Shown here one piece after another: positions 2,867 to 34,583 of a stretch of DNA of 50,151 nucleotides. Numbering within the stretch: position 1 is the first letter of the stretch; the number at the start of each line of letters is the position of its first letter. The position numbers and the translations under genes were made by a program. This DNA comes from a virus. The notes under the pieces are model-generated. The model worked only from the letters and a program-made list of their open reading frames with translations, searched no databases and was not told the origin of the DNA. The stretch is from IMG/VR virus record IMGVR_UViG_3300046689_000416, positions 1-50,151 of that record; one strand, 5' to 3'.

Positions 2867-3265
2867 ATGTTCCTTGCTCTGGCCCTCTGCCTCGGCCAAC
2901 CGCTCGTGGTGGAGAACAAGTGCCCGGCGTTCACGGTCACGAACAAGTGCCCGGCCCCGGCCGTGAGCCTCCCCTACCACCGTGGCTACCCTGTTCACGC
3001 GACCCGCTGGACCTACCCCGGTGAAATCCACAGCCATCTGAAATCCGGGCAGCACGCCGGGAAGTGGCCGGCCGCTTGGATCGACGGACTGTCCCGTGCG
3101 GAGGCCGAGGCCCTGCACGACGACGACCACGAGGGGCGGGTGAGGTGGAGTTACGTGCCGGGCCGTAGTTCACAGGCCGTGGCCCCCTCCCCGCCCCCCG
3201 TGGCCTCTTACACCCCCCGGTCGCTATACTCCCCGTCGTACTGCCCACCGGGGGCTTCTCACTGA
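2867..3265 (+). CDS. small predicted exported protein with NKCP motif pair
   Basis: 132 residues; ATG at 2867 preceded by GGAG. It starts with a short signal-peptide-like stretch (MFLALALCLGQP) followed by the duplicated motif VENKCPAFTVTNKCPAPAV. The middle has a GYPVHATRWTYPGE segment and the C-terminus is Ser/Pro-rich (SPSYCPPG). Proteins with this QPxVVENKCP start are, from memory, typical of Gemmata-type planctomycetes, which supports the host guess. Function unknown. A TATACT hexamer lies inside its 3' end (3225) upstream of the next gene. Confidence 0.7.
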   Translation: MFLALALCLGQPLVVENKCPAFTVTNKCPAPAVSLPYHRGYPVHATRWTYPGEIHSHLKSGQHAGKWPAAWIDGLSRAEAEALHDDDHEGRVRWSYVPGRSSQAVAPSPPPVASYTPRSLYSPSYCPPGASH

Positions 3266-24596: not shown

Positions 24597-24829
24597 GGCC
24601 TTTCCTCCGGTTCGGCTGCCAGATTCGGATTCTCTCCCCCGTACCCGAACAGGTCCTCCGGCGTGCCGCCGAAGTGCTTCTCGCACATCTCCCTCAACTG
24701 CTTCTCCCGCCGCTTGGACTGGATCAGCAGGGTTCGCTTCTGGACTTCGTCTTTTTCCTTCCAGTACAACCGCTGGCCTTCGAGCATGGCCAGAGCCAGC
24801 CGGGCGATCTCGTCTACCGTGATTTTCAT
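24593..24829 (-). CDS. small helical basic protein
   Basis: 78 residues; ATG at 24829 with AGGACC, overlapping the stop of the ParB-like gene (ATGA). Mostly one long charged helix (WKEKDEVQKRTLLIQSKRRE). Could be an accessory of the ParB-like protein, judged only from coupling. Confidence 0.55.
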   Translation of the reverse strand: MKITVDEIARLALAMLEGQRLYWKEKDEVQKRTLLIQSKRREKQLREMCEKHFGGTPEDLFGYGGENPNLAAEPEERP

Positions 24830-25515
24830 TGGTCCTTGACCTCCTCCGCGACGGCCGTGGCCAACTTCACCACACTCTCCAACCACTCGTCCGCCTTCGA
24901 GCGGATGGGGAGGAACTTGACCTTCTTGACCAAGTCGGCGTGGATTTCCTTAATTCCCGGCTTGGATTCGGCCTCCACGTCGGGCGTTCCGGCAGGCGTG
25001 TCGGCTGGGGCCGAGTAGGTCTTTCCGTCCCGACCTTTACGTTTCGGCTTGTTTTCCTGTTGCGAGGTGTCCACCGTGGACACCTGAGATCGAATTTTCC
25101 CTACGAAACTAGGACTAACGAAAATCCGGTCCGCGATTTTCCGGTCGCTCCAATCCGGGTGGATCTTGAACTGCATCTCCGCACAGACCCGTTTGTCGTC
25201 GTCCGAACGCGGCAGGCCGTGGCCGATATCCCCCACGGAGGCGTCGTCCATCGCGTCCTCGAAGTTTCCGTTCCTCACCTCGCATTCGATCCGCTTGATG
25301 CCGAGCTTCTTCGCCGCCTGGATTCTCGTCCAGCCTTGGGTCAGGTAAAACCCGATCCGGCCCGTTATCAGCCACACCCGGGGGCAGGGGACGGATTCCT
25401 TGTCGGCCTCGTAGGCGTATTTCAGGTCCTTCATGTGGGCCAAGGCGATCCGCTTGGCCCGGGCGTGGAGTTTTTTGTCGAGAACGATCTCGTTCAGGGC
25501 AATCTGCTTTTTCAT
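24826..25515 (-). CDS. ParB/Srx-like DNA-binding protein with HTH
   Basis: 229 residues; ATG at 25515 with GAGG. VWLITGRIGFYLTQGWTRIQ then AAKKLGIKRIECEV corresponds to the ParB/sulfiredoxin core, with GWTRIQAAK in place of GxHRxxAA (residues 61-69). Residues 123-142 (SDRKIADRIFVSPSFVGKIR) form a helix-turn-helix. A polar linker follows (QENKPKRKGRDGKTYS), then a C-terminal helical part. No ParA partner was found, so a role as regulator or origin-binding protein is more likely than partition. A palindrome in its own coding sequence (25065-25086) is repeated in the divergent control region. Confidence 0.7.
   Translation of the reverse strand: MKKQIALNEIVLDKKLHARAKRIALAHMKDLKYAYEADKESVPCPRVWLITGRIGFYLTQGWTRIQAAKKLGIKRIECEVRNGNFEDAMDDASVGDIGHGLPRSDDDKRVCAEMQFKIHPDWSDRKIADRIFVSPSFVGKIRSQVSTVDTSQQENKPKRKGRDGKTYSAPADTPAGTPDVEAESKPGIKEIHADLVKKVKFLPIRSKADEWLESVVKLATAVAEEVKDQ
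25065..25086 (-). promoter_or_regulatory. palindrome inside the ParB-like gene, copy of the 33887 site
   Basis: Read on the minus strand this is a 22-base sequence identical to 22 of the 23 bases at 33887-33909. The half-site is AGGTGTCCAC with one central base. It encodes the VSTVDTS segment directly after the HTH. Likely an operator or parS-like site for the protein it lies in. Confidence 0.6.
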
Positions 25516-32966: not shown

Positions 32967-33269
32967 CTAGTCGGCATAGGCCGCGGGAATGAGCTTGCTG
33001 CAATGGTCGCAATGAAGCTCGGCATCTTCATAGTTCACGTCCATCCCGTCAACCGCCCACCCACCGTGGGAGTTGAACGGTCGGCCTGTCCGGTTAGCCG
33101 AGTCGATCTCGGCAATGTTCCCGTTCGCACAATCCGGGCAGATGCAACCGCCATCGGTGAACACGTAGAAGATCGGATAACCGCCCGGCCAAGCGAAGCT
33201 CGGCAACGGTTCCCGACAGACGGGCAGGCCGACAGACTTGCGTACCCTTTTGAGAGCTTGTTTCGACAT
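32967..33269 (-). CDS. zinc-ribbon early protein
   Basis: 100 residues; ATG at 33269 with GGAG. FTDGGCICPDCANGNIAEID (Cys44/47) and LHCDHCSKLIPAAYAD (Cys87/90) make a split four-Cys zinc site, with a GWAVDGMDVNYEDAELHC segment between. Looks like the small phage zinc proteins often found in early regions. Function unknown. Confidence 0.65.
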   Translation of the reverse strand: MSKQALKRVRKSVGLPVCREPLPSFAWPGGYPIFYVFTDGGCICPDCANGNIAEIDSANRTGRPFNSHGGWAVDGMDVNYEDAELHCDHCSKLIPAAYAD

Positions 33270-33358
33270 GATCAACTCCGGTTAAGAGTTCCCGGCCACA
33301 ATCGGCCGGTCCCCCCGTCCCTCCGGCCGAATGCCGTGGGAAGGGAGGACCGGTCGCA

Positions 33359-33517
33359 CTAGGCCGGGCGATATCCTTCCCGCCGCAATCGGGAAACGAA
33401 CAATTCCTCCGCGCGTCGGTCCGTGAACAATTCGTGGTACCGTCCGTCCGACGTCCGGTATTCCCGGTATTCCCCATCGACCGCGGACCGGACAACCGTT
33501 CGTGAATAGGTCTTCAT
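33359..33517 (-). CDS. first early gene, 52-residue basic protein
   Basis: ATG at 33517 with AGGTGAG and the CTAACCC leader. Sequence KTYSRTVVRSAVDGEYREYR then RAEELFVSRLRREGYRPA is a small beta-alpha protein with high Arg content. It is the promoter-proximal gene of the minus-strand block, next to the control region, so it may be the first made after infection. No family recognised. Confidence 0.55.
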   Translation of the reverse strand: MKTYSRTVVRSAVDGEYREYRTSDGRYHELFTDRRAEELFVSRLRREGYRPA

Positions 33518-33630
33518 CGTCTCACCTAGTGGGTTAGAAGTCTGGACAACTCAACCGTACCCCACGAACAATCGACAGGAAGGCGGACGCAAACCGGAAA
33601 GACGGGATTTCCCAAACTCGCCAGGACGGG

Positions 33631-33680
33631 CGTTAACAACCGTTAACAGGCCACCGAATACCGTAAACAAAAGCTAACAC
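33631..33680 (+). repeat. short AT-rich repeats at about helical spacing
   Basis: CGTTAACA at 33631 and 33641, CGTAAACA at 33662 and GCTAACA at 33673. Starts are 10, 21 and 11 bases apart, close to one or two turns of the helix, so the units face the same side. Iteron-like. Confidence 0.5.
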
Positions 33681-33787
33681 TCCAAACCCAAACAACTCCC
33701 CTGGAGCAAGCTCGCCCCCGCCCGAACCGAATCCCCCACCGGCCGACGACTCGCACCGAACCAACTTGACCGGGCGAGGACGCATCT

Positions 33788-33822
33788 CCCCGTTTTTCCG
33801 TCCTCCCCCGTTTTTTCCGTCC
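33788..33822 (+). repeat. tandem pair of CCCCG-T(5-6)-CCGTCC
   Basis: Copies at 33788-33803 and 33806-33822 are identical apart from one extra T. Starts are 18 bases apart. Function unknown; could be a protein-binding or DNA-bending site. Confidence 0.55.
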
Positions 33823-33859
33823 AATCTCTCATCCCGCCTTGTCCCGTCCTGTCCTAATG

Positions 33860-33937
33860 TGCGTTTGCCCCTTGTATTCGTGTTGTCAGGTGTCCACGGT
33901 GGACACCTGCCTGTGTTTGCTCCTTGTATTTGCGTTG
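33860..33937 (+). repeat. two 26-bp direct repeats flanking the palindrome
   Basis: Copies at 33860-33885 and 33912-33937 match at 22 of 26 positions (shared core CCTTGTATT). Their starts are 52 bases apart, about five helical turns. The palindrome at 33887-33909 fills the space between. Confidence 0.6.
33887..33909 (+). promoter_or_regulatory. 23-bp palindrome, candidate ParB-like operator
   Basis: Perfect inverted repeat with half-site CAGGTGTCCAC and one central base. The same 22-base core is present in the ParB-like gene at 25065-25086 and nowhere else noticed. Sits midway between two direct repeats in the divergent control region. Confidence 0.6.
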
Positions 33938-34109
33938 ATTGGCGCGGGTCTGCGCGTGTCCTAGTCCAGCTGCCCACCCAGCTGCCGGGCGAGGGTACGA
34001 GACCGGCCCACGCGAGAACTGAGCCGCAACCCCACCCCGGGCGAGGGGAGTCCCGGGCGACTTAAGTTCCCCCTGCCCCCACAAGGGTTTAGGTGATATC
34101 CTGTGTGTC

Positions 34110-34583
34110 ATGGTGGAGGAGGCGGCAGTTGTGGAGGAGGTGATTCCGCAGCCGGTGTGCGGTTGTGGGGTGGGTTTGCGGAAGGCGGGGAAGACGCCGA
34201 ATGGGTCGCAGCGGTGGGAGTGTCGGAAGTGCAATCGGTCGCTGGTGGGGTCCCGGCCGGATGTTGCGGAGGTTTTGGCGGGTCGGAAGCCGGTGGAGGA
34301 GGCTCGGAATCCGGTATTGACGGCGTACCGGCATGTGTTGGAGAACAAGGAGGCGAAGTATGATCGGAGCGGGTTGGAGCGGACGGCCCGGACGATTCAT
34401 GAGGATAATCCGCAGCGGTTTATGGACCGGTATGACGAGTTGGAGGCCGAGGAGCGGGGTGCGGAGCGGGTAAGTCGGGCGGGGGATGCGGTTGCGGTGG
34501 GGGTAGTGGGTTCGGACGAGCGGGGGGTTCGGGAGTTGATTCGGGGATTGTTATCGGAGATGAAGGGGGTGTCGGATGTTTGA
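34110..34583 (+). CDS. candidate small terminase subunit / zinc-ribbon protein
   Basis: 157 residues; ATG at 34110 with AGGTGA somewhat far upstream. Cys17/19 (VCGCGVG) and Cys38/41 (WECRKCNRS) form a zinc ribbon at the N-terminus. The rest is helical and charged (LERTARTIHEDNPQRFMDRY). First late gene, two genes before the large terminase; position and helical design suit a small terminase, but no family motif confirms it. Unusually G-rich with T/G third positions compared with the rest of the genome. Confidence 0.5.
   Translation: MVEEAAVVEEVIPQPVCGCGVGLRKAGKTPNGSQRWECRKCNRSLVGSRPDVAEVLAGRKPVEEARNPVLTAYRHVLENKEAKYDRSGLERTARTIHEDNPQRFMDRYDELEAEERGAERVSRAGDAVAVGVVGSDERGVRELIRGLLSEMKGVSDV

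Follow-up and report, generated by a model that had tools for sequence, protein, structure and literature searches.

A Bacillus subtilis parS is located in spo0J, and the sites of KorB are many and lie mostly in promoter regions. RK2 KorB is described as a ParB-fold regulator that exerts long-range silencing by clamp sliding from its operator (PMC11790492), and for P1 RepL a site inside its own gene is postulated (PMC9948254). In the ParATS system of SCP2, ParT recognises an 18-bp inverted-repeat parS site within its own coding sequence, as established by ChIP-seq and BLI, and diffuses on DNA without CTP (PMC12260392). SPP1 gp38 binds oriL in gene 38 and the intergenic oriR about 13 kb away (PMC6316719), the lambda ori, with sites for the DNA-binding half of O, lies inside gene O (PMC4488673) and the operator of the StrR activators of antibiotic clusters has the consensus GTTCGActG(N)11CagTcGAAc (PMC8306873). 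The locus presented here comes from a phage sequence of 50,151 nucleotides (IMG/VR record IMGVR_UViG_3300046689_000416, analysed in full and referred to as the window), in which a gene for a ParB-like protein contains a palindrome that is found at one other place in the window.

The ParB-like DNA-binding protein gene (24826-25515, minus strand) encodes 229 amino acids and was assigned by a PHROG match, an AlphaFold2 model and PDB fold matches; gene calls in the window are heuristic. The protein has a ParB/sulfiredoxin-like N-domain, an HTH at residues about 121-142, a linker and C-terminal helices. Its PHROG profile is that of a ParB-like partition protein (E 3e-8), the AlphaFold2 model built from 59 family sequences has a mean pLDDT of 81.7 and the closest PDB folds to this model are ParB, Noc, KorB and sulfiredoxin (E down to 7e-6). 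A profile search also matches ParB and Spo0J chains, and Pfam ParB_N was detected in 13 of the 59 family members, the window protein itself (P0001) not being among them. Its modelled N-domain fold places the protein in the ParB superfamily, and its HTH is predicted to read a palindromic site. The codons of HTH residues 121-142 occupy 25090-25155 on the minus strand and include those of the specificity residues R125, S134, P135, S136 and F137, designated by covariation; these reading residues (125 and 134-137) correspond in the family alignment to column 121 (R125) and columns 130-133 (S134-F137). Around the ParB-like gene, the leftward gene group encodes an exonuclease, an Erf-like annealing protein and a DNA methyltransferase. 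Across the 20 window genes scanned, the named matches were terminase, exonuclease, Erf, methyltransferase and peptidase, all phage or DNA-processing functions.

Two copies of a 21-bp perfect palindrome, AGGTGTCCAC-S-GTGGACACCT, are present in the window, neither assigned to a strand: one in the ParB-like gene (AGGTGTCCACCGTGGACACCT, 25065-25085) and one in the noncoding DNA of a divergent intergenic region (AGGTGTCCACGGTGGACACCT, 33888-33908). The in-gene copy covers codons 144-151 of the minus-strand ORF, which encode QVSTVDTS. Residue 142 is the last of the HTH columns, and the initial annotation was thus correct in placing the palindrome directly after the HTH codons. When both copies are read in one direction, they match at 20 of 21 bases. 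One copy has C as its centre base and the other has G, and therefore the exact 22-mer that had been noted to recur at 33887 is indeed shared (25065-25086 and 33887-33908), but on opposite strands. Only these two places match with three or fewer mismatches in the 50 kb, there is no third copy in the 50,151-base record and no match arose in 100 dinucleotide shuffles of the window, so that two copies stand against none expected.

The divergent control region (33496-34130) separates the leftward genes (recombination, methyltransferase, ParB-like) from the rightward genes (terminase onward). The second copy has the leftward ORF 33094-33495 on one side and on the other the first rightward gene (start 34110 or 34131), a small gene that is followed by the terminase large subunit. 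It is flanked by 26-bp direct repeats on the plus strand, TGCGTTTGCCCCTTGTATTCGTGTTG at 33860-33885 and TGTGTTTGCTCCTTGTATTTGCGTTG at 33912-33937, which are 52 bp apart and whose core occurs only twice in the window. Also within this region is the minimum of the cumulative GC skew of the window, at 34082. Separate from the palindrome, two 19-bp tandem repeats, TCTCCCCGTTTTTCCGTCC and TCCCCCGTTTTTTCCGTCC, lie at 33785-33822.

When viral contigs were searched for the 17-bp core, two further ParB-like genes (L003 and L007) proved to contain it, again after the HTH. The additional palindromes of L007 have other sequences, and L022, a phage gene with only 29% identity, carries TACTAGTCAGACTAGTA twice in the same linker, so it seemed that a palindrome was kept rather than its sequence. 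The L007 gene (490-1593) has five or more palindromes and near-palindromes in its linker codons; they belong to more than one sequence type and resemble iterons, and a further palindrome lies outside the gene at 3239-3255. The L003 gene is of a clearly different type and has GTGTCCACGGTGGACAC shortly after its HTH (1684-1700), so in-gene operators may extend beyond the family studied here. The same 17-bp palindrome was also seen beside the start of related integrase-looking ORFs in three contigs (L017, 4189-4205; L019, 278-294; L020, 11648-11664), with more TGTCCAC half-sites nearby, and in several other viral contigs in unrelated contexts, which were treated as background.

To collect relatives of the protein, viral contigs and the genomes of bacteria and archaea were scanned with profiles and a few phage and plasmid records were added, using patterns from conserved peptides; the family is thus sampled rather than complete. 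P0001 by itself found no viral relatives, which were found with a four-member alignment. The resulting set comprises 324 ORFs from phages, bacteria and plasmids, 205 of them nonredundant (less than 80% identical in the core); the window gene and L007 were picked for having a palindrome and all other members by protein sequence. In 112 of the 205, the 150 nt that follow the HTH codons contain a palindrome with a score of at least 9, against 2.0 expected from synonymous-codon shuffles and a single relative for an interval of equal size before the HTH. Ninety-one of these palindromes are centred no more than 30 nt behind the HTH codons, and the centre is one base in 81 of the 112. The best site of a locus is in the family gene itself in 140 of 205 cases, against 18.4 expected from gene length. 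The palindromes vary in sequence among relatives and occur in all three codon phases, so the peptide is not what is conserved; the peptide VSTVDT as the cause of the palindrome is ruled out on the same grounds, since relatives have other peptides there. It had been proposed at the outset that relatives keeping the protein without the palindrome would speak against an operator, and such relatives are a minority, 55 of the 205 having no palindrome with a score of at least 7 in the first 150 nt after the HTH. In several of these 55 there is a degenerate site within the gene, a site next to it or a large number of sites in other parts of the genome.

Choosing one best palindrome per member gave 130 sites, whose half-sites were compared with the protein alignment. 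Similarity of the inner half-site tracks similarity of the recognition helix (Mantel r 0.48; none of 2000 permutations as high, the largest being 0.086) and does not track similarity of the N-domain (r -0.01), controlling for which changes nothing. Among pairs with less than 45% N-domain identity, inner-site identity rises from 0.25-0.27 where the recognition helix differs to 0.76 where it is alike. The highest mutual information is found at HTH columns, namely column 131 with half-site position 5, 121 with 6, 133 with 1, 132 with 4 and 130 with 3. By alignment column, R121 accompanies G at position 6 (80/80), D130 accompanies G at position 3 (22/22) and K132 accompanies G at position 4 (29/30). 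At column 131 D and E go with C at position 5 (18/18 and 15/16) and H with G (42/50), and at column 133 T goes with A at position 1 (46/47) and F with C (43/46). These tables make chemical sense, and the codons of the specificity residues do not overlap the palindromes. The five specificity residues form 153 distinct combinations among the 205 nonredundant proteins. The permutation tests leave some shared ancestry, which was limited by training on members below 50% or 60% identity and by a swap control.

For the position tests, a blind code was trained on members less than 50% identical to the target. Its predictions are well above the commonest base at half-site positions 1, 3, 4, 5 and 6 (0.67 vs 0.20 at position 5) and no better than the commonest base at positions 2 and 7-10. 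A code trained without the window ranks the sites at 33888 and 25065 first and second among all 21-mers of the window, with 14.4 each and 8.3 for the next, although the single best predicted half-site is wrong at positions 3, 8 and 9. Across the family an in-gene site was found in 107 of 205 members with their own blind codes and in 6 with swapped codes, taken from members with other specificity residues. The initial annotation took the gene to contain an operator for its own product, which would also recognise the copy at 33888, and this view is supported by covariation over the 130 family sites, by the blind ranking and by the swapped-code control. The in-gene palindrome is thus very probably the specific binding site of the ParB-like protein encoded by the same gene, as predicted from sequence comparison. 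Computation supports a model in which the HTH reads each half-site: R125 would read the G that lies six bases away from the dyad, and residues 134-137, where the recognition helix begins, would read positions 5 to 1. Most of the relatives examined appear to have the site in the linker codons that immediately follow those of the HTH, and specificity and site would thus be inherited as one cassette and change together.

The number of sites per genome differs between members. Four bacterial genomes (3.8-5.3 Mb, DHK-type HTH) have one match each, and judged from contig ranges all four positions agree with the family gene itself. Three marine phages (L031, L033 and L038; records G001-G003) have 20-23 dispersed copies of TGGAAACGTTTCCA per 58-60 kb, with 0 in the control, which possibly reflects a use of such sites in the manner of stoperators or of a regulon; several of these copies are 35-75 bp before a gene start. 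In a planctomycete (CP087563, G009) most sites are near its two family genes, and site pairs with a spacing of 56 bp occur at 2999572/2999628 and, 32 kb away, at 3031963/3032019, in the neighbourhood of a family gene that has an in-gene site of its own. Exact off-gene copies on the same contig number 8 against 0.24 expected, so second sites are real but uncommon, and the majority of relatives lack one within 10 kb.

Two explanations that dispense with binding by the encoded protein fit these data poorly. An RNA hairpin (attenuator, terminator or translation control) that chances to be encoded twice would account for the terminator-like appearance of the second copy in a mechanical scan, but it gives no reason for the palindrome sequence to track the HTH residues; moreover, 81 of the 112 palindromes have a one-base centre, none of the 19 arm mismatches is a G-T pair and the noncoding copy lies in the divergent region instead of at a gene end, making this reading highly improbable. 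Still harder to credit is a mobile palindromic repeat (REP/RPE-like) inserted in frame, or chance. The palindromes are located in a tolerant linker, as such insertions might be, yet there is a single copy per genome in the four bacterial genomes tested, and the palindromes of relatives differ while being predictable from the HTH, at a frequency of 112 against the 2.0 of synonymous shuffles. Binding by the encoded protein thus remains the favoured explanation of the palindrome, and the remaining alternatives, which are compatible with it or presuppose it, concern what the binding is for. As to this role, neither an SF2 helicase nor ParA was found in the window, and the in-gene sites are not in an AT-rich stretch. 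Tentatively, the likeliest role in this phage would be autoregulation together with control of the divergent region. A dimer would bind both window copies; at the in-gene copy it would nucleate on its own DNA and probably feed back on its own operon, and from the copy at 33888, which has the leftward operon on one side and the rightward terminase operon on the other, it could control divergent transcription and/or the start of replication. Spreading or looping over the 8.8 kb between the copies, as was suggested initially, would be plausible for a ParB/Noc/KorB-like fold and is speculation.

Behind control of the divergent region with autoregulation, we would place a replication organiser and then partition-type clamp loading. 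As an organiser of the SPP1 gp38/lambda O type, which is a possibility of some substance, the protein would use the in-gene site and the intergenic copy as origin-binding sites and bring in a helicase. Functions in replication and recombination are suggested by the neighbouring genes: an SF2 ResIII/DEAD helicase is the next gene downstream in 49 of 80 family loci, often overlapping or touching the stop codon, and RusA, SSB, DnaB/DnaC or primase are encoded upstream in some loci. Some members have at least two in-gene palindromes, and in the placement of its putative sites, one in its own gene and one in a distant intergenic region, the window protein resembles SPP1 gp38. The SPP1 origins, however, contain direct repeats and an AT-rich unwinding element, and lambda ori has four 19-bp iterons and an A-T-rich segment, whereas the window family usually has one perfect palindrome; repeated sites with an adjacent AT-rich unwinding element were not found, the AT content near in-gene sites being 0.37-0.44 against a gene mean of 0.40. 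The helicase is missing from the window, and the GC-skew minimum at 34082, which would suit an origin, also coincides with the point of divergent transcription. The conserved helicase after the family gene (49/80) may, in its own right, mark an unnamed replication module. Loading of the protein at a parS-like partition or DNA-clamp site, from which it would slide or spread as ParB, KorB and ParT do, is unlikely. It would suit the modelled ParB/Noc/KorB-like fold, the single site in each of the four bacterial genomes, which is what a nucleation site needs, and the precedent of ParT, with which the window gene shares a site inside its own coding sequence. Nonetheless, ParT works with ParA and has no ParB N-domain, whereas the window family has this domain and only one of 32 phage records has ParA (AAA_31). 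The locus was not classed as a canonical ParABS partition system, since AAA_31 was found neither in the window nor in 30 of the 31 other phage records searched. KorB differs as well, in that placement in the gene behind the HTH is not part of the KorB system as described.

StrR-like activators are related ParB-like proteins with an HTH, and phage and plasmid matches of the family carry the StrR label. Most family sites have the layout of the StrR operator, a 5-bp box, N11 and the inverted box, as does the window site (AGGTG-N11-CACCT). In a StrR-like relative on a Streptomyces plasmid (L186), TTCGACTG-N11-CAGTCGAA is located in the gene right after the HTH codons and equals the published StrR consensus. 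StrR proteins activate antibiotic clusters, whereas the window is from a phage, and no antibiotic or secondary-metabolite cluster was seen among the 20 window genes scanned; the window protein was not assigned as a StrR regulator.

Operators inside the gene of their own binder are already known from ParT, lambda O and SPP1 gp38, and it is the family-wide rule and the readable code that appear to be new, as searches of the open-access literature turned up no account of an operator that sits in the gene directly behind the HTH throughout a family, nor of covariation or a code between a ParB HTH and its site. The alignments and site comparisons suggest that a widespread ParB-like family probably keeps its operator in its own gene, behind the HTH codons, as an inheritable specificity cassette, and that it provides a residue-to-base code for a ParB-type HTH with more than 100 natural specificities. 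As the operator is inside the gene itself, each family gene would be a self-labelled protein-site pair, and the different targets within the family let the reading residues of the protein be matched to DNA letters. The 153 combinations of specificity residues constitute a natural experiment in how HTH specificity changes, comparable with laboratory work on ParB and Noc (PMC7383237). A single repeat thereby becomes a rule: in a large and little-studied family present in phages, plasmids and bacteria, the gene itself often reveals the DNA target ahead of experimental work. Furthermore, the arrangement suggests a reason for keeping the site in the gene, which is that recombination would move the reader and its target together.
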